DNA of 64,000 bases, taken from assembly GCF_001307035.1 (NCBI RefSeq), contig NZ_LKIU01000005.1:978300-1042299 (forward strand), read 5' to 3'. Below are positions 5,936-18,377 of this stretch, one piece after another; the stretch's first letter is position 1; each line of letters starts with the position of its first letter. A program made the position numbers and the translations under genes. The stretch comes from Arthrobacter sp. Edens01 (GTDB lineage Bacteria > Actinomycetota > Actinomycetes > Actinomycetales > Micrococcaceae). The notes beneath the pieces were generated by a model. The model was given only the letters and a program-made list of their open reading frames with translations. It made no database searches and had not been told where the DNA came from.

Positions 5936-7402
5936 GTGAGCCAGAAGTCCGATACCTGCCTGGATGCGTGGATGGACAGGGAAGCGATGGCAGAAGCCAT
6001 GATCCCGCTCATTGGCCGGCTCTACCGGGAGAACAGTGTGGTCACCTCGGTTCACGGCCGTCCGCTGGTCAACCGCTCCGTCATCGACATCTTGAAGGCG
6101 CACCGTTTCGCCCGGCAGATTGACGACGTTGAGCTCCCGGTCGCCGAGACCCTGCCGATTCTCCAGGCCCTTACCGAACTCGAACTTGGTGCAGCGTCCG
6201 TAGACGTGGCCCGCATGAACGCCAAGTACCAGCGTGAAGGCAACGGCGCACCCCTGGTGGACTTCCTGCGTGCCGAACTGGCCGACGTCGCCGGCAAGCA
6301 CGGTGCAGACGAGCGCACCAGCACGGATGTGGTCCTGTACGGTTTCGGCCGGATCGGCCGCCTCCTGGCGCGTATCCTCATTGACCACGAAGGCGGCGGC
6401 CACGGACTGCGGCTTCGGGCCATCGTGGTCCGCAAGGGTGCAGAAAACGACCTCGTGAAGCGGGCGAGCCTGCTGCGGCGCGACTCCGTCCACGGTGCGT
6501 TCCCCGGCACCATCACCGTGGATGAGGAGAACAACACCATCCTCGCCAACGGCACGCTGATCCAGGTGATCTACTCCAACGATCCGAGCACCGTCGACTA
6601 CACGGCTTACGGCATCCATGACGCGATCGTCGTGGATAACACCGGCCGCTGGCGCGATAAGGACGGGCTGGCCCAGCATCTGCAGGCGAAGGGCGCTTCG
6701 CGCGTCCTGCTGACTGCTCCGGGCAAGGGCGACCTGAAGAACATCGTGCACGGCATCAACCACCAGGCCATCACGGATGAGGACAAGATCCTCTCGGCAG
6801 CGTCCTGCACCACGAATGCCATCACGCCGGTGCTGAAGGTCCTCAATGACAAGTTCGGCATTGTGAACGGACACGTGGAGACCGTCCACTCCTTCACCAA
6901 CGACCAGAACCTGATCGACAACTTCCACAAGGGCGACCGCCGCGGGCGCTCCGCTGCGCTGAACATGGTCATCACCGAGACCGGTGCTGCAAAGGCCGTT
7001 GCCAAGGCACTTCCCGAACTGGCCGGAAAGCTCAGCGGCAACGCGATCCGTGTTCCCACCCCCGATGTTTCAATGGCCATCCTGAACGTGAACCTTGAAA
7101 CTGAGACCACCAAGGAAGAGCTGAACACCTTCCTCCGCGAGACCTCGCTGAACTCCGAGCTGCACAAGCAGATCGACTACATCGATTCTCCGGAAGTTGT
7201 TTCCACGGACTTCGTCGGCTCCAAGCGCGCCGGTATTGTTGACGGCCTGGCAACGATTTCCAACGGCAGGAACGCCATTCTCTATGTCTGGTACGACAAC
7301 GAGTACGGCTACAGCTGCCAGGTCATCCGGGTGCTGGAAGAAATGGCGCACGTGAATCCGCCCGCCTTCCCGCGCGCTGAAGAACTGGTCGCCAGCCTCT
7401 AG
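5936..7402 (+). CDS. gapB: Glyceraldehyde-3-phosphate dehydrogenase, long GapB type
   Basis: 488 residues from GTG 5936, with an AAGGAT ribosome-binding site about 12 bases upstream. An N-terminal extension of about 120 residues precedes the Rossmann motif VVLYGFGRIGRLLARIL. The catalytic cysteine is in SAASCTTNAITPVLK (Cys291), and VHSFTNDQNLIDNFHKGDRRGRSAA and WYDNEYGYSCQV are family landmarks. The extended form is the actinobacterial paralogue called GapB, which in Corynebacterium glutamicum acts in gluconeogenesis; the cofactor preference here is not read from sequence. It ends at a strong terminator shared with convergent def. Confidence 0.93.
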   Translation: MSQKSDTCLDAWMDREAMAEAMIPLIGRLYRENSVVTSVHGRPLVNRSVIDILKAHRFARQIDDVELPVAETLPILQALTELELGAASVDVARMNAKYQREGNGAPLVDFLRAELADVAGKHGADERTSTDVVLYGFGRIGRLLARILIDHEGGGHGLRLRAIVVRKGAENDLVKRASLLRRDSVHGAFPGTITVDEENNTILANGTLIQVIYSNDPSTVDYTAYGIHDAIVVDNTGRWRDKDGLAQHLQAKGASRVLLTAPGKGDLKNIVHGINHQAITDEDKILSAASCTTNAITPVLKVLNDKFGIVNGHVETVHSFTNDQNLIDNFHKGDRRGRSAALNMVITETGAAKAVAKALPELAGKLSGNAIRVPTPDVSMAILNVNLETETTKEELNTFLRETSLNSELHKQIDYIDSPEVVSTDFVGSKRAGIVDGLATISNGRNAILYVWYDNEYGYSCQVIRVLEEMAHVNPPAFPRAEELVASL

Positions 7403-11073: not shown

Positions 11074-12612
11074 ATGACCGCCCAGGTCCCTGCGACCGAG
11101 CCTTCGTCTCCCGAATCGGAGAGCACGAAAACCGACCATCCGAACGTCGCGATCATCCAGGGTTTCATCGGTTCGGTGATGATGCTGGCCGGTTCGCTCG
11201 GCGTGGGATGGCTCTCTCTTTCCTCTTTCGAACTCCGCCGTGTCGAATTCATCATGTGGCTGCGTTTTGAACCCGCGGGTGCGGTCATTTCAGTTCTGCT
11301 GCTCGCCCTGGGCGGGATGCTCCTTGTGCGCTCCTGGCTGCGCTTCGGTCAGCGGATCGGGGACTGGGGGCCGCATTCCAGGCCGTATGTGCTCAAGGCG
11401 ATCCTGGCCTGGGGCGGACCTATGTGCCTGACCCTTCCGCTCTTCAGCCGAGATGTCTTCGCTTACATTGCGCAGGGCCTGGTCATGGTGAGCGGGCTGA
11501 ACCCGTACAAGGACGGCTATTCCCAGATTTCAAACTACCTGCAGCTGGGTGCTGATGATCTTTGGGCACAAAGCCCCACGCCCTACGGCCCGATCTTCCT
11601 CTGGCTCGAAGAGATCGTGGTTCGGATTACGGGCGGCCAGACCGAGTTTTCAATCCTGCTGTTCCGGCTGATCGCGCTGATCGGCGTGGCAATGTGCGTT
11701 TACTACGTGCCCAAGCTGGCCGAACTTCACGGGATCAATCCCAACCGGGCGCTCTGGCTCACTGCAGCCAACCCGCTCTTCCTGACCAACTTCATTGCCA
11801 GCATCCACAACGACGCGCTGATGATCGGGCTGGCCCTCGCGGGACTCTACTATGCTGCAACCAAGCGCGGTGTACTGGGAATCCTGCTGGTCACGCTGTC
11901 CGTGGGGATCAAGCCCATCACGCTGATCTTCCTGCCGTTCATCGGTCTTATGTGGGCAGGCAAGGGTGCTTCCTGGCCGCGCAAGTTCCTGTTCTGGTTC
12001 CTCACGGCAGGGATATCCCTCGGGTTCCTCGCCATTCTCGGCGTCGTCAACGGACTCGGATTTGGCTGGGTCGGCGCTCTGAGCACTCCGGGAAGCGTGT
12101 GGATCTGGTACGCCCCTGTTGGCTTCCTTGGACTTATCGTGGCGACCCTGGGAAATTCGCTGGGGTTGCCCGGCTGGTCCTTCGCGGACTTCGTGCACAC
12201 TATTGGGCGGCTGGCGTCCCTCGCAGTCGTTGCCTGGCTGATGTTCGTGGGGGACTACTCCCGGCTTGTTCGCCGGCTGGCACTGGCCTTCGCCGCGATC
12301 GTCATGCTGGCGCCCATGATCCAGTCCTGGTACGTGGTGTGGCTGATCCCGCTCTTCGCAGTCACCGGCATCCGCAACGACTGGCAGGTCAAGACGCTGT
12401 ACCTGTTCGTGTCCTTCTTTATGGTTTACGCGATCAGCGACCAGCTGGACATCTGGCCGTACTTCGAGTTCAGCCTCAGTGCAGCGCGGCAGATTGCCGC
12501 GGTTACCGCCGTCGCGTTCGCCCTCTACCTGATTTTCCTTGACCCCAAGACCAAGGTGCTCTTCCGCAAGAAGCTTACGGAACCTGTCCCGGGCGAACTG
12601 CGGATTCGCTGA
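11074..12612 (+). CDS. mptB: Polyprenol-phosphomannose-dependent alpha-1,6-mannosyltransferase MptB
   Basis: 512 residues from ATG 11074. Polytopic membrane protein of GT-C type: an N-terminal helix pair, an external loop with QGLVMVSGLNPYKDGY and SPTPYGPIFLWLEE, then ANPLFLTNFIASIHNDALMIG, all typical of MptB. In corynebacteria and mycobacteria MptB uses polyprenyl-phosphate mannose to start the mannan backbone of lipomannan; Micrococcaceae also make lipomannan. The gene overlaps the convergent GT87 gene by 38 bases at its 3' end, so the two related enzymes share their terminal sequence. Upstream ATGs exist (11008) but leave an unlikely N-terminus. Confidence 0.9.
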   Translation: MTAQVPATEPSSPESESTKTDHPNVAIIQGFIGSVMMLAGSLGVGWLSLSSFELRRVEFIMWLRFEPAGAVISVLLLALGGMLLVRSWLRFGQRIGDWGPHSRPYVLKAILAWGGPMCLTLPLFSRDVFAYIAQGLVMVSGLNPYKDGYSQISNYLQLGADDLWAQSPTPYGPIFLWLEEIVVRITGGQTEFSILLFRLIALIGVAMCVYYVPKLAELHGINPNRALWLTAANPLFLTNFIASIHNDALMIGLALAGLYYAATKRGVLGILLVTLSVGIKPITLIFLPFIGLMWAGKGASWPRKFLFWFLTAGISLGFLAILGVVNGLGFGWVGALSTPGSVWIWYAPVGFLGLIVATLGNSLGLPGWSFADFVHTIGRLASLAVVAWLMFVGDYSRLVRRLALAFAAIVMLAPMIQSWYVVWLIPLFAVTGIRNDWQVKTLYLFVSFFMVYAISDQLDIWPYFEFSLSAARQIAAVTAVAFALYLIFLDPKTKVLFRKKLTEPVPGELRIR

Positions 12613-13834
12613 GGGCACCTGCCCGGGCCAGACCCACGATCTTGCCGACCGCCCAGACGAAGAGGGCCATGAGCAGCAGGTTGCGCACGGTCAGCAGCAG
12701 TGCGACCCCGATGTTCAGGTCGTCATAAAGGGCCTCGTAGAACATTGGGTAGACCAGGGTCGTGAGGGCCGCCACGGCTATCATCATGGCCGCGGGCAGC
12801 CGCCAGGCGCGCCCTTCCCAGGCAATGCCAACGGCAACCACAGCGCCAAGCCAGAGCATAAACTGCGGCGAGCCGACCTTGTTGAACACGATGAAGGCTG
12901 CAACGAGGGCCAGGGAGCCGGTGGCCAGCAGGGCACCGGTGTCCGCGCCCCGGCGCAAGGCCCAAATCAGCAGGGCCACGACGGCGACGGCGGCCAGTGC
13001 AAGGAGCGGCGTCATGAGGGCCGCCACCGGCTCGCCCAGGGCACCGCGGACCTCGCGCGTATTAATCACGGTGTCTTCAAAGATGTGCGCATCTGAACGT
13101 CCCAGGATTGCCTGCCACAGGCCGGGAGTGGTGAACGGGGCTTCCAGCTGCATGCCTCGGTCTCCCTGCGCTCCGACGAAGCTCAGCAGGTGCCGAAGGC
13201 CTCCGGCGGCGGTCACGACTGCGGCAATAACTGCGGAAAGTGCCGCACCGGTGATGAGCATGGTCAGGCGGCGCTTTGAAACTGCGAGGACCGCAAGGAT
13301 TACTGCCGCCGGCCAAACCTTCATCCACGTGGCAGCGGAGAGCAGCAGGGAAGCAACCACCGGGCGGGATGCAAGCAGGAGCAGACCCATGATCACCAGC
13401 GGGACGGTGAGTCCGTCAATGCGGCCGACGGCGACCGGCCCGAGCAGGGCGGTGATGCCGAGCCACCAGTAGGCGGCGACGCAGCGCTGGCGGGTTCGCG
13501 GGGCCGTCAGGACGGCAAAGCCTGCAGCATTCAAAGCCGTGAAGATCAGGAACCAGGCGAACTGGTAGGCGCCGTAGCCGAATGCGGATGCCAGCAGCAT
13601 GGGCACCAGCGCGCCGATCGGGTAGACCCAGTCACTGCTGATGCCCTGCCACGCTCCGTCCCGGATTCCTTCGAAGGCCCACTGACGGTAGAACTGGATA
13701 TCGCTGAGAACCTCGCCGGTGAAAATCAGGGGTGAGAGGAGTCCGAAAAAAAGCAGGTGAACGCCGGCGAAGGCCAGCCACAGAGCCTTTGTTTGCATGT
13801 AGCGGGGCTCGGCAGCAACCGGTGAGGACGACAT
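12575..13834 (-). CDS. GT87-type membrane mannosyltransferase
   Basis: 419 residues with about ten hydrophobic helices. The first external loop contains SDIQFYRQWAFEG, resembling the acidic D-x-x-x-Y-xx-W motif of polyprenol-phosphate-mannose-dependent GT-C enzymes (GT87/DUF2029), and a later loop contains NKVGSPQFMLWLG, also characteristic. Such enzymes transfer mannose outside the membrane to lipomannan, PIMs or similar glycolipids. It is convergent with mptB, overlapping by 38 bases, and diverges from the DUF3224 gene. The exact acceptor and linkage cannot be inferred. Confidence 0.82.
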   Translation of the reverse strand: MSSSPVAAEPRYMQTKALWLAFAGVHLLFFGLLSPLIFTGEVLSDIQFYRQWAFEGIRDGAWQGISSDWVYPIGALVPMLLASAFGYGAYQFAWFLIFTALNAAGFAVLTAPRTRQRCVAAYWWLGITALLGPVAVGRIDGLTVPLVIMGLLLLASRPVVASLLLSAATWMKVWPAAVILAVLAVSKRRLTMLITGAALSAVIAAVVTAAGGLRHLLSFVGAQGDRGMQLEAPFTTPGLWQAILGRSDAHIFEDTVINTREVRGALGEPVAALMTPLLALAAVAVVALLIWALRRGADTGALLATGSLALVAAFIVFNKVGSPQFMLWLGAVVAVGIAWEGRAWRLPAAMMIAVAALTTLVYPMFYEALYDDLNIGVALLLTVRNLLLMALFVWAVGKIVGLARAGALSESAVRPGQVP

Positions 13835-13954
13835 GCGAGGTAGTACTCCTTAACAGCGGATTCTGGATGCGCAGGCCGCCGCACCCCAGCGATAAGGGTA
13901 CCTGTGGCGCAACTCCGGCATGCAATCGGAGGCCGAACACGGAATACTGGTGGC

Positions 13955-14431
13955 ATGGCCGACGGAACAGAGCACTCGATCACTGCCGATTTTGAAGTTT
14001 CCTCCTGGGAGCCGACCCCTTATGTAGTGGAGGGGACCAACAGCGAGCTCTCCACCGTTCGTGCGGTCAAGATCTTCGAAGGTCCCGTCACGGGCACGAG
14101 CATTTCCGACCTCCTCCTGGCCGGCAACGCAACAGGGGCCGGCTACGTCGGCAGCGAGGTCTTCGCAGGCAGCGTTGAAGGACGTGAGGGGACCATGGTG
14201 ATACAGCACTGGGGCCTCGCGGAAGGGGAGGCTACGGCGTCGTCCGGCCACATCATTCCGGGCTCGGGAACCGGAGGACTCACGGGAATCTCCGGCGCGG
14301 CGATCTTCTCCCAGACCGAAGACGGGCAGCACCGCGTTGAGCTGCGGGTGTCCTTCCCACAGAATACGGCGGAACAGGATGGTTCCGGGACGGAGCAGCC
14401 TGTCGGCGGACAGGAAGCCGGCTCCCGCTAG
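13955..14431 (+). CDS. DUF3224 domain protein
   Basis: 158 residues from ATG 13955. Sequence shows the all-beta pattern of DUF3224 (allene-oxide-cyclase-like barrel): a start with ADFEVSSWEPTPY, a middle KIFEGPVTGTSISDLLL and later GHIIPGSGTGGLTGISG, where the GTGGLTGI motif is the family hallmark. The function of these small soluble proteins is unknown. The stop codon shares the palindrome CTAG (14428-14431) with the stop of the convergent M50 protease. The last 25 residues are Glu/Gln/Gly-rich and look disordered. Confidence 0.85.
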   Translation: MADGTEHSITADFEVSSWEPTPYVVEGTNSELSTVRAVKIFEGPVTGTSISDLLLAGNATGAGYVGSEVFAGSVEGREGTMVIQHWGLAEGEATASSGHIIPGSGTGGLTGISGAAIFSQTEDGQHRVELRVSFPQNTAEQDGSGTEQPVGGQEAGSR

Positions 14432-15180
14432 CCTGCCAGCCAGCCCGGCAGGGAAAATGCCGGAGCGAGCAACCGGAACGCAGTGGCAGTGCATGCACCT
14501 ATCACCCCGGCGAACAGCCCGAGCCACACGACAGACGGCACGCCCGAGCGCTGGGCCAGGATCCAGGCATCCGAAGACTGCAGCGATCTGCGGCGCCGGG
14601 TGTGGACGGTGACCACGTTGAGCCAGTCCCGGACAGCACCGACCAGCAGGGCGATTCCAAGGGAAGCAACGACGGAGGCCGCAAAGGTGGCCGGAACAAA
14701 CCAGAGCAGCAGCACCGCTGTTACTGCGCAGCCGCCTGCTATCGCCGCCCCCTGTAGATTCCGGATGAACACCAGCGCTGCCGCCAGGACAAGTACACCC
14801 CCTGAGAGGGCGGCAGACGCCCAGCCGGTCTGGGCTGCCCAAATAAGCACCAAGCCAGTCAGGGCCGGAACGGGATAGCCCCAGAACCCGGCCCAGAGGG
14901 CGCCGAACCCGCCACGCCCGAGGCTTTTCATCTGCCCCGAGTGGTCGAACCGCAGTTCAATGCCTGAAATTCGATGGCCGACCAGCAGTGCGGCGAAGGC
15001 ATGTCCGAGTTCGTGGACAAACGTGACGAAAAGTCCAAACCACCGCCATGTTTGCCGGGGCACCGCCAGCAGCACCGCGGCAGCCGTAACAGCCACCAGC
15101 AGCCAGGGGTCTGCCTCCAGGCCACCGGTGCGGCTGAATCCGGACGTGATCCTGTCCCAGAAGCTGACAGCCCAGGTCAA
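14428..15180 (-). CDS. M50-family membrane metalloprotease (M50B type), candidate site-2 protease
   Basis: 250 residues from TTG 15180, which overlaps the TGA of the anti-sigma gene (TTGA, 15177-15180). The zinc motif is FVHELGHAFAALLVG (His56, Glu57, His60) inside a hydrophobic helix, followed by RISGIELRF; a possible third ligand is Asp in QSSDAWILAQ near the C-terminus. About six membrane segments. M50 proteases cleave substrates within the membrane; site-2 proteases release anti-sigma-bound sigma factors. Coupling to the anti-sigma gene makes the anti-sigma factor the natural candidate substrate, an inference. Earlier starts would lie within the anti-sigma frame. Confidence 0.82.
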   Translation of the reverse strand: MTWAVSFWDRITSGFSRTGGLEADPWLLVAVTAAAVLLAVPRQTWRWFGLFVTFVHELGHAFAALLVGHRISGIELRFDHSGQMKSLGRGGFGALWAGFWGYPVPALTGLVLIWAAQTGWASAALSGGVLVLAAALVFIRNLQGAAIAGGCAVTAVLLLWFVPATFAASVVASLGIALLVGAVRDWLNVVTVHTRRRRSLQSSDAWILAQRSGVPSVVWLGLFAGVIGACTATAFRLLAPAFSLPGWLAG

Positions 15181-15941
15181 AGGTCCAGCTGACCCCTCAG
15201 GATCGAATTTCCTGAGTGCTCGGGGTTGCCGTCGTGTGGTTCGTCGGAAATATCCACGATTGGGTAAGCGCTGAGGTCTAACCCGTCCGGGATTCTCAGG
15301 CGCGCCTCGGTGCCGTCCATCTCGCCGAGGCTCACCATGGACGTGATATCCGGTGAGATCAGCCAGACTTCCCGGTAGCCCTCTGCATCGGCACTGCTGG
15401 AGGTGATGACGAGTTCGCGTTCGCCGTCGGGCAGGAGGTCCACGGTGGCGGTACCCTCGTCGCTGTAGGAGGGCAGGGGAGCCAGCGGAACCGAAGCAAT
15501 GACCTCCGGTGCGGGCTCCAAATTGCGCACAACACCCCAGGTCGCTGCTCCCGCGACAACGGCTGCTGCGGCTGCCGCGGCGAGCCATTTTGCTCCGCTG
15601 CGGCGGCGGCGCCGTTCATCTGCGAGGGAAACGGGCTGCGACGTATCAGTGGAAGAGGCCCTCGGACCCGCGCCCGCAGCCGGTTCCTGTCCCCGTGCGT
15701 TTTCCAGCGGATCGCGTCGCAGCGCAGGGTCAAGGTTGAGTGCTTGATGGATCCCGGCCCAGACCGCGGGGGGAGGAACTGACCCCTCCGGAGCGCTGCT
15801 GCGGCCGGCCCGTACAACCCGGCCATAGGCACTGATTTCACTGCGGCACTGTTCACATGACTCAAGGTGCGCCGATTCTTCGGCGGCAGGTTCCTCACCG
15901 AGGGCCAGGAGAGCCAATGCATCATCGTGCAGGTGCTGCAT
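15177..15941 (-). CDS. RskA-family anti-sigma factor
   Basis: 254 residues. The N-terminus carries the zinc-anti-sigma pattern H-x3-C-x2-C (HLESCEQC, about 27-34). A basic stretch (ERRRRRSGAKW) precedes a single membrane helix (WLAAAAAAAVVAGAATWGVV, about 118-137). The outer domain (SVPLAPLPSYSDEG to the end) matches the RskA C-terminal domain with GYREVWLISPD and DLSAYPIVDISDEP. It should hold the adjacent sigma factor at the membrane. Its ATG lies within the end of the sigma gene (20-base overlap) and its stop overlaps the start of the M50 gene, so three products are coupled. Confidence 0.92.
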   Translation of the reverse strand: MQHLHDDALALLALGEEPAAEESAHLESCEQCRSEISAYGRVVRAGRSSAPEGSVPPPAVWAGIHQALNLDPALRRDPLENARGQEPAAGAGPRASSTDTSQPVSLADERRRRRSGAKWLAAAAAAAVVAGAATWGVVRNLEPAPEVIASVPLAPLPSYSDEGTATVDLLPDGERELVITSSSADAEGYREVWLISPDITSMVSLGEMDGTEARLRIPDGLDLSAYPIVDISDEPHDGNPEHSGNSILRGQLDL

Positions 15942-16491
15942 CGCTTACCTCCAATCTTTGCCTCAGTTGAATAAGTCCCCGGCGGATGTGGCTCTTGACC
16001 GTTCCCAGCGGCAGGCTCAGCTGTTCCGATATCTGCTGGTGGGTCATGTCCTCATGGAAGGCCAGGCGGAGAATCGAATGCTGAGGTTCGCCCAGGCGGG
16101 TGAGCTCCGCATCCAGAACCACTTTGTCTGCCACGCCTTCCTGGTCAGGTCCCCGTGTTTCGTCCCGCTCGCTTCGTGCGGCGGCGCCTTCGAGGACGTC
16201 TTCCTCACGGATCCGGGACGAGGTCATTGTTGAAGCAACGTTCCGAGCGATGCCCACCAGCCATGCTGCGAGGGTTGAACGCTCCGGCGAATAGGTCTCG
16301 CGGTACCGCCAGGCACGGATAAAAACTTCCTGCACGGCGTCGTCTGCAGCCCCGGGATCTATGAGGCGCCGCAGCGACATCGTCCGGACCAGCGGAGCGA
16401 AGCGGCGGTATGCCTCGGCAAGGGCTGCCTCCTCACCTGCGGCGAAAGCCTGGTCGAGGCCGTCGTCCCGCTCGGGGGCACCGGATGACAT
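15922..16491 (-). CDS. ECF sigma factor, SigK-like
   Basis: 189 residues. Region 2: LAEAYRRFAPLVRTMSLR, DAVQEVFIRAW and STLAAWLVGIARNVA. Region 4: LRLAFHEDMTHQQISEQL followed by LPLGTVKSHIRRGLIQLRQ, a helix-turn-helix for the -35 element. Pairing with an RskA-type anti-sigma factor downstream is the arrangement of the sigK/rskA operon in mycobacteria, where the regulon includes secreted fasciclin-domain proteins. Here the likely targets are the neighbouring sortase and DUF4397 surface protein, an inference. No autoregulatory promoter match could be identified with confidence upstream. Confidence 0.93.
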   Translation of the reverse strand: MSSGAPERDDGLDQAFAAGEEAALAEAYRRFAPLVRTMSLRRLIDPGAADDAVQEVFIRAWRYRETYSPERSTLAAWLVGIARNVASTMTSSRIREEDVLEGAAARSERDETRGPDQEGVADKVVLDAELTRLGEPQHSILRLAFHEDMTHQQISEQLSLPLGTVKSHIRRGLIQLRQRLEVSDAAPAR

Positions 16492-16559
16492 CGGGGGAGT
16501 ACTCCTGCCGTTGGCCTGCTGACGTGCGGCGCGGGGGGTAGCCCGCGTGCGGATTTTCC

Positions 16560-17225
16560 CTATGATACCGGTGTTGCCGTGAGCACAACGTTATCTTCAT
16601 AGTCGTTCTCCGTGTCGAGCCACTGGCCGCCGCAGGTGACCAGCTTCAGCAGATGATCCCCCGTCCGGTCGAAGAGGCGGTGTCCGTCAAGGGATCGCTT
16701 GGCGATGTTCTCTACCTGCTGTGTCCGGTACACGACGGTGGAGCCGTCTTCCCTTGTCACAGTGACTTTGGTTCCTGGTGCTACGTCCTTCAGGCCGGCG
16801 ATGGGCAGCACCTCCGTTTGTGAGTCCACATGTGCGGCCAGGACCGAAGACCCGGCGTCGGCACCTGGTGCCGGTCCGTAGCGGTACCACCCGGCCTGGA
16901 CGTGGTTGTCGGGAATGGTCATTGCGCCGTTGTCCTCCACTCCGACCGGCACTACCTCCAGGTCGATGCCCGTACCTTCCACCTGGACCCGGACCGGGGC
17001 GGGGATGGCTTCCTCCGCTTCGGGGGAAGCCTGCCGGATTGGAATGCCTGCTGCGGGAGATGACGCAGTGGGGGATGATGGCGCGGACTGCTGAGTCTGC
17101 GGCGAAGCGGAGCTGGCTGCCGGTTCCTGTGCTGCAGGCCCGCCGGCGCACGCTCCCAGCGCCAGAGCTCCGGCGGTCAGCCAGGCTGCAGCGAGGTATC
17201 GGCGGGAGCTTCCGGGGTGGTGCAT
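16560..17225 (-). CDS. Class F sortase, predicted lipoprotein
   Basis: 221 residues. A signal peptide ends in a lipobox-like ALGAC (Cys26), followed by a Ser/Pro/Gln-rich spacer to about 60. The sortase domain has the catalytic histidine in LAAHVDS (His132) and cysteine in LVTCGG (Cys198). The catalytic arginine is normally found about twelve residues after the cysteine (YRDNVV); here that site reads YEDNVV (Glu210), so either the arginine is supplied elsewhere or chemistry is altered. Sortases cleave LPXTG-like signals and anchor proteins or crosslink polymers. It lies between the sigma gene and the DUF4397 gene on the same strand. Confidence 0.88.
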   Translation of the reverse strand: MHHPGSSRRYLAAAWLTAGALALGACAGGPAAQEPAASSASPQTQQSAPSSPTASSPAAGIPIRQASPEAEEAIPAPVRVQVEGTGIDLEVVPVGVEDNGAMTIPDNHVQAGWYRYGPAPGADAGSSVLAAHVDSQTEVLPIAGLKDVAPGTKVTVTREDGSTVVYRTQQVENIAKRSLDGHRLFDRTGDHLLKLVTCGGQWLDTENDYEDNVVLTATPVS

Positions 17226-17272
17226 GTAAGGAGCCTTTCAGGGTGGTTATCGGGGAACTTCGTGATATGGGA

Positions 17273-17314
17273 GAAGGTGCAGTGCAGCCGTCACGCCGGC
17301 TGCACTGCACCTTC
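17273..17314 (-). terminator. 18-bp perfect inverted repeat between DUF4397 and sortase genes
   Basis: Arms GAAGGTGCAGTGCAGCCG (17273-17290) and its exact complement (17297-17314) with a 6-base loop. Its position 29 bases past the DUF4397 stop fits a terminator or an mRNA-stabilising hairpin. There is no T-run on the reverse strand, so termination would be imperfect. Confidence 0.65.
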
Positions 17315-17342
17315 GGATTGGAGGGCGCTGCACGCCCGCGGA

Positions 17343-18170
17343 CTACTCCGCGGAGGTTGCGTCCACGGTGCTGCGGCGGCGGGCCACCACTGCGGTGCCG
17401 GCCAGTGCCATCAGCGTCAGGCCACCGGCGGCGGCAAGCATGACGCCGGAGTTGTCCTGGGCTGCGGGCAGGGCACCCGGCACTGCGTTGGGCGCGCTTT
17501 CCATGCCTTCGACGGTCTGGGTTGCGAGGGCGAGGTTGCCGTCTTCCAGGGAGCCCCATGCGTAGACGATGGTGTGGACACCTTCAGGCAGGGTCAGATC
17601 GGCCGGGCCAATGACAGGCTCAGTCGTGCCTGCTGCCGCCACGGAGGCCGAGATGGTTCCGGCGTCCACGGGAAGTGTCTTCTCATCGGGATTCGCCAGG
17701 TTCGTGATCACCGGTGTGCCGTTGGCGAGCACATCTACAGCGGGAGCGGCGGCCACGTGGCGAACCGTGAGGTGCGCCTTCCCGGCCTCGATGGTGGACA
17801 TGTCATTGGTGTAGAGGTTGGCGGTCGGGGTGCCGTCCTCGGCAAGGTTTGCCACCGCCGTGAAGTTGCCGCCGGCGGTGAGGTCTGCGGTTACCGGACC
17901 GATGATCGGAGCGGAAGCGTCAGCTGCATCCGGAGCGGTAATGGCGAGTTCGTAGCTGCCTGCGGGCAGGGACAGCGGCCCGGCCATACTGCCGGGCGTG
18001 AAGTCATCAAGGGTCAGCTCACCATTGACGTAGACATCCACGGTGGTGTCCGGGACGGCGTGGAAAACTGAGAGCTGGGCCTCATCTGCTGCCGAGGCTG
18101 CGGGTGCGGCTGCCAGGCCTGCTGCGGCTGCCAGGCCGGCTGCTGCAAAAATTGTGGTGGTCCTGCGCAT
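17343..18170 (-). CDS. Secreted DUF4397 protein with C-terminal anchor-like segment
   Basis: 275 residues from ATG 18170, preceded by AGGAG. Signal peptide MRRTTTIFAAAGLAAAAGLA ending near ASAADEA. Two DUF4397 units are seen: LSVFHAVPDTTVDVYVNGEL (about 33-52) with later YELAITAPDAADASAPIIGP, and LTVRHVAAAPAVDVLANGTP with ISASVAAAGTTEPVIGP. The C-terminus has LPAAQ, a hydrophobic stretch (GVMLAAAGGLTLMALAGTAVV) and RRR, the layout of a sortase sorting signal but without LPXTG. The adjacent sortase is the obvious candidate partner. DUF4397 proteins are extracytoplasmic; their ligand is unknown. Confidence 0.88.
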   Translation of the reverse strand: MRRTTTIFAAAGLAAAAGLAAAPAASAADEAQLSVFHAVPDTTVDVYVNGELTLDDFTPGSMAGPLSLPAGSYELAITAPDAADASAPIIGPVTADLTAGGNFTAVANLAEDGTPTANLYTNDMSTIEAGKAHLTVRHVAAAPAVDVLANGTPVITNLANPDEKTLPVDAGTISASVAAAGTTEPVIGPADLTLPEGVHTIVYAWGSLEDGNLALATQTVEGMESAPNAVPGALPAAQDNSGVMLAAAGGLTLMALAGTAVVARRRSTVDATSAE

Positions 18171-18377
18171 GGCTTCTCCTAATGTGTTTTGCCGGCCGTG
18201 TTGCCCGGCTCCTTTGTGGCCTACACCTCCTTTACCGGTGGGGCGGCGGGTTTGGATGCAGAAGTATGAAAAGTTTTTCGAAAACTTTTCCACGCCCGCG
18301 CGTGCCTCCGTATGGCACGCTGCCAGCCGTTTCGCTGCCGGGGACCTGTCCGGGTGCGTAGTATCATCGTTTGGTCT

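Follow-up and report, generated by a model that had tools for sequence, protein, structure and literature searches.

The analysis of the window (the whole stretch of DNA that was analysed, 64,000 nucleotides) identified five adjacent genes, all on the minus strand and running from position 18170 down to 14428. The genes encode a DUF4397 protein, a sortase, an ECF sigma factor, an RskA-like anti-sigma factor and an M50B protein (Table 1). A preliminary description of this DNA had given the same genes, on one strand, and the same coordinates, and all were borne out by the reading frames and by Pfam matches above the curated cut-offs. The two gene overlaps in that description were likewise present. 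The sigma and anti-sigma genes share 20 bases, and the TTG start codon of the M50B gene (15178-15180) overlaps the TGA stop codon of the anti-sigma gene (15177-15179) to form the four bases TTGA. The TTG start is plausible rather than certain, the frame staying open upstream to an ATG at 15588. The overlaps are consistent with co-translation of the sigma factor, the anti-sigma factor and the M50B protein.

Table 1. Features of the locus, listed in the direction of transcription of the surface-protein gene
Feature	Position in the window	Strand	Support
Putative SigK-type promoter TGCATCC-N16-CGGTAA, upstream of the DUF4397 gene	18232-18260	-	Loose pattern in 36/37 loci
DUF4397 secreted protein, 275 aa	17343-18170	-	PF14344, 109 bits
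18-bp perfect inverted repeat, DUF4397-sortase intergenic, without a T-run	17273-17314	-	Sequence reading
Class F-like sortase, lipobox-like cysteine near start	16560-17225	-	Pfam Sortase PF04203, 56 bits
ECF sigma factor, SigK-like, no cysteines	15922-16491	-	Sigma70_r2, 56 bits; r4, 42 bits
RskA-like membrane anti-sigma factor, HxxxCxxC and RskA_C domain	15177-15941	-	RskA_C PF10099, 55 bits
M50B-family membrane metallopeptidase, TTG start assumed	14428-15180	-	PF13398, 141 bits

The inverted repeat between the DUF4397 and sortase genes has counterparts in the Arthrobacter citreus/koreensis/luteolus group. The stem measures 16-19 bp in A. koreensis, A. citreus and A. gallicola and only 9 bp in A. 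gandavensis; no stem of at least 8 bp was found in the other three group loci. An A/T-rich palindromic stretch (GAAAAGTTTT / AAAACTTTTC) lies at 18267-18292, just upstream of the promoter motif. At the opposite end of the locus, a DUF3224 gene is convergent with the M50B gene, with a 4-base overlap, and is followed by a GT87-family glycosyltransferase gene (12575-14431).

The conservation of the locus was analysed in 149 genomes of the family. A module genome was defined by a match to an RskA-like profile, built from 18 sequences, with E < 1e-50. This cut was our own; 37 of the 149 genomes had such a strong match and 45 matched at E up to 1e-6, and diverged modules could escape the profile. 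The genes for DUF4397, sortase, sigma factor and RskA were present in the same order and on one strand in 28 of the 29 RskA loci from other genera of the family. A single locus of these other genera (L157) was without a recognised sortase, and when the sortase was disregarded, the order and strand of the remaining three genes were kept in 29/29. The flanks of the module differed among the loci. At class level, a DUF4397 relative was present in 38 of 296 genomes. Among 28 DUF4397 loci from outside the family, read with flanks of up to 1.5 kb (shorter at three loci), a sortase adjoined in 25, a sigma or RskA-like gene was present in the flank in 21, and both were present in 20. The sigma gene was divergent at four of the out-of-family loci (L221, L228, L229 and L242). 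The DUF4397 region of L226 (genome G342) looks broken or rearranged, with stop codons inside the match and an RskA-like gene on its upstream side.

The region upstream of the DUF4397 gene carried TGCA(T/A)C(C/T) at 80-101 bases before the start codon in all 37 family loci. A two-box pattern was found there in 36/37 loci in its loose form (shuffled mean of 0.83, maximum of 4) and in 26/37 in its strict form (shuffled mean of 0.09, maximum of 1); as the loci are related and the pattern was defined after their inspection, the single-base shuffle overstates independence. The loose pattern was found upstream of the sortase gene in 5/36 loci, the sigma gene in 1/37 and the RskA gene in 1/37, and upstream of the M50B gene in 0/8 regions of the group and in 1/102 M50B upstream regions, with the upstream regions of these control genes taken from the longest frame and therefore possibly misplaced. 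A scan of the window's own genome with TGCATCCN{14,19}GGTA returned seven sites, against two for the reversed pattern, and one of the seven was inspected. A locus outside the family, L222, carries GCATCC-N17-CGAATA and was kept outside the counts. The mycobacterial SigK consensus is CCATCC-N16/17-CGAATA. The motif upstream of the DUF4397 gene resembles SigK promoters and was annotated as a putative promoter. The relevant portions of two papers describe SigK sites as conserved among Actinobacteria (PMC7509140, PMC10202637). With the gene order conserved in the family and partly checked across the class, and a promoter-like motif before the surface-protein gene, the linked unit of sigma factor, anti-sigma factor, sortase and surface protein that had been proposed for this locus was upheld. 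No paper joining DUF4397, sortase and SigK was found among the titles and abstract openings searched.

The DUF4397 protein has a signal-peptide-like start, a C-terminal hydrophobic segment and a basic tail. The LPXTG motif was absent from the last 80 residues of all 20 aligned DUF4397 proteins, the window protein included. The residues P227 and V230, ahead of the hydrophobic tail, were invariant in this alignment, and LAGTA was present inside the tail in three of the 20. The sortase has the Pfam sortase domain, with H132 and C198 invariant in 15/15 module sortases. Sortases carry an active-site arginine after the cysteine. No arginine follows C198 in the window sortase and none is conserved in the 15 module sortases, as read from an alignment with no structure placing the active site. 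Of the paralogues of the sortase in the same genome, L006 and L007 likewise have D-N where the arginine might stand, and L005 has arginines there. The search for solved structures returned none for the sortase or M50B profiles, the one sortase match being due to chance. The DUF4397 protein and the sortase may be a dedicated enzyme-substrate pair.

The M50B protein of the window exceeded the cut-off of the PF13398 profile (141.4 against 26). The zinc-site residues H56, E57, H60 and D204 were invariant in 15/15 sequences of one alignment and in 122/122 of a larger one; six of 128 sequences, all with HE(M/V)GH, had been left out of the larger alignment by the motif filter, and HExxH itself was present in 128/128, duplicate genomes included. 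An active M50 metallopeptidase would be expected to have these residues. M50B was found in 99 of the 149 family genomes and in 22 of 32 genera, mostly as a single copy, in a single-sequence search that was repeated by profile. It was also found in 126 class genomes outside the family (129 of 296 when the three belonging to the family are counted). Five partial secondary matches (L108-L112) were kept outside these counts.

An RskA-M50B adjacency was observed at 8/8 loci of the window's own genus and in 15/15 genomes of the Arthrobacter citreus/koreensis/luteolus group. The 15 comprise eight genomes from the family search and 11 named loci, with four shared. The 11 (of 30 named loci) with RskA followed by M50B are from Arthrobacter koreensis, gandavensis, gallicola, pullicola, citreus, luteolus, zhaoxinii and yangruifuii and three further species; the 19 outside the group (Brevibacterium, other Arthrobacter, Zafaria, Zhihengliuella and Paenarthrobacter) had no module gene in the flank. 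The TTGA overlap was present in four of the 15 genomes (the window, A. koreensis, A. gandavensis and A. citreus). The TTG directly followed the stop codon in one, and 20-49 bases separated the stop from the first possible in-frame start in the remaining ten. Within the group, the RskA-M50B adjacency held; beyond it in Micrococcaceae, where conservation of the five-gene order had been put forward as a check, M50B did not adjoin the module at the loci examined. Loss of the adjacency in relatives had been named in the preliminary description as an outcome that would speak against its reading, and beyond the group this outcome was obtained.

The two components also varied independently of each other across the family. 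No RskA, sigma or DUF4397 match was found in the stretch read around the 91 M50B loci of other genera, 85 of which had 3.9 kb or more on each side and six less; one of them (L043) had a sortase about 5 kb away. Conversely, no M50B match was present within the 8-12 kb read around RskA in the 29 module genomes of other genera, and no module gene lay beside M50B at the best 27 of the 126 out-of-family M50B loci, with flanks of up to 1.5 kb. M50B was not detected in 11 of the 37 module genomes, profile search included, and 73 of the 99 M50B genomes had no strong RskA match. By hand tally, the module was present in 26/99 M50B-positive and 11/50 M50B-negative genomes (p = 0.69), and in 18/91 and 11/50, respectively, when the own genus was excluded (p = 0.83). 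M50B had no steady partner in other genera, no neighbour cluster exceeding 16 of 102 loci once M50B and its antisense frames, which form a cluster of 42 loci, were set aside. In the group, ssb, the DUF6993 lipoprotein gene, the GT87 gene, the DUF3224 gene and tRNA-Arg were conserved at 8/8 loci and ettA at 7/8, where ssb and ettA are names that we assigned. Since these unrelated neighbours are equally conserved, the RskA-M50B adjacency reflects general local synteny and carries no extra signal. An ancestral place of M50B by ssb was also considered; as judged by eye, G029 alone among genomes outside the genus had ssb, tRNA-Arg and ettA near M50B, at distances of up to about 6 kb. M50B is thus probably a lineage-specific neighbour that lies outside the core of the module.

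The alternative that survives best is that, in the group, M50B shares a transcript with the module but has other membrane proteins as its targets, the two being linked in expression only. The shared strand and the short distances in the group (a 4-base overlap, or gaps of 49 bases at most) would accord with this. M50B neighbours differ between genera, so that such coupling is not general, and we give the alternative somewhat less than an even chance. That M50B was recruited in the group to serve the RskA-like anti-sigma factor as its dedicated site-2 protease, making a five-gene circuit, is considered improbable. The adjacency in 15/15 group genomes, the TTGA overlap in four and the HExxH motif with its invariant aspartate are compatible with recruitment, and the known anti-sigma site-2 proteases belong to M50. 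Like Rip1 and those other proteases, the M50B protein is an M50-type HExxH membrane metallopeptidase; unlike Rip1, it is of the M50B subfamily, has no PDZ match in Pfam and has no known substrate. Among the loci examined, M50B stands beside an anti-sigma gene in only one genus group. The absence of the adjacency from the other-genera loci examined, the occurrence of module and M50B in separate genomes and the equal conservation of other group neighbours all argue against recruitment, and a Rip1-type protease is present in the genome. The self-contained five-gene circuit with a dedicated protease, as proposed in the preliminary description, was not supported: M50B and the module occur independently of each other, and the five-gene unit was rejected with M50B beside RskA in a single Arthrobacter group. 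The idea of an envelope module held in outline; the dedicated protease was not supported outside the group and is at most a candidate reading within it.

The identity of the sigma/anti-sigma pair was assessed against curated profiles. The labels 'SigK-like' and 'class F' that had been given to the sigma factor and the sortase proved loose: similarity was found for both, but the scores lay below the NCBIfam cut-offs (96.0 bits against 226 for the SigK model NF007228; 125.9 against 166 for the class F model NF033748). The sigma factor lacks the cysteine pair of the SigK type, having none. In the part of PMC7509140 that deals with ECF19, two conserved cysteines are given for 56% of that group (SigK belonging to ECF18/ECF19). 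The anti-sigma factor exceeded the Pfam RskA_C cut-off (55 against 29.4) and scored below that of the NCBIfam equivalog NF052375 (60.1 against 100); HxxxCxxC was present in 34 of the 37 RskA-like anti-sigma factors of the family module loci.

A second pair was found in the same genome at L171 (L171:5093-8232, G000:C4), with scores of 212.4 for the sigma factor (SigK cut-off of 226) and 164 for the anti-sigma factor (cut-off of 100). Like the window pair, it has a secreted protein and a sortase as neighbours, the latter scoring 167.9 on the class F model (cut-off of 166). Unlike in the window, the arrangement is divergent, the secreted protein has no Pfam match, and the pair is much nearer to SigK/RskA. 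A sigma/RskA pair with a sortase in a similar divergent layout was also seen at L174 (G118). The sequence CCATCC-N16-CGAATG was found by eye before the L171 secreted-protein gene at 6707; the scripted pattern required a final A and hence did not list this site. Because the L171 pair scores nearer to SigK/RskA, the window pair is, judged by its profile scores, a SigK/RskA-like paralogue of it. The window pair probably has its own promoter preference. That the window pair is the genome's SigK/RskA itself, orthologous to the mycobacterial system, is very improbable: the profile similarity to SigK and RskA_C and the similar form of the promoter-like motif are outweighed by the L171 scores (212 and 164, against 96 and 60 for the window pair) and by the site before the L171 secreted-protein gene, and SigK orthology of the window sigma factor was rejected on the 96 bits here against 212.

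A wider reading, which we put forward as speculative and on balance doubtful, would see a class-wide actinobacterial module. An insulated SigK-like sigma/anti-sigma pair would act through one promoter on a DUF4397 protein and a dedicated sortase, with a non-LPXTG, P-x-x-V sorting signal and a sortase without the usual arginine. In this genome, a second sigma/anti-sigma/sortase module would stand alongside, differing in its secreted protein and in a promoter of shifted sequence.

Taken together, the findings indicate that the locus is likely to be an ECF module of four genes which switches on the DUF4397 surface protein, with M50B as a lineage-specific neighbour. In the mechanism that we infer, from promoter recognition and signal through proteolysis and read-through to the sortase-substrate relation, the membrane RskA-like anti-sigma factor would hold the SigK-like sigma factor until an envelope signal led to its removal. 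Most simply, removal would begin with a first cut, after which a Rip1-type site-2 protease from another part of the genome would act, as happens to RskA in Mycobacterium tuberculosis. The sections of PMC7509140 and PMC10202637 on that system describe cleavage of RskA by Rip1 and a first-cut protease that is not known there. In the window's genome, a Rip1-type protein that matches PF02163 and has a PDZ domain is encoded next to dxr, and by parsimony it may serve the window anti-sigma factor; the choice is not forced, because a second PF02163 M50 membrane protease of 410 aa, without a PDZ match, is present (L003:760-1992, G000:C5). The freed sigma factor would start transcription at a single conserved promoter ahead of the DUF4397 gene, giving the surface protein. 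The class F-like sortase would perhaps be made by read-through and may attach the DUF4397 protein, and M50B, which follows the module in a single Arthrobacter group, may be co-transcribed.

The proposed module is similar to the mycobacterial sigK-rskA system with mpt70/mpt83, in which an ECF sigma factor and an RskA_C-type membrane anti-sigma factor control secreted or surface proteins, and its promoter has a form similar to the mycobacterial consensus given above. Unlike that system, the output in the window is a DUF4397 protein together with a sortase in the same block, and the sigma factor is cysteine-free, with another sigma factor of the genome matching SigK better.

The family-wide comparison bears on the tempting inference that a protease encoded next to an anti-sigma factor is dedicated to it, which was unsupported here beyond one genus group. 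It brought out a better supported unit, consisting of the sigma factor, the anti-sigma factor, the promoter, the surface protein and the sortase. Should the sortase prove to act on the DUF4397 protein, the two would form a natural pair of enzyme and substrate in which the sorting signal is unusual. The DUF4397 promoter could serve as a reporter in the search for the envelope signal.
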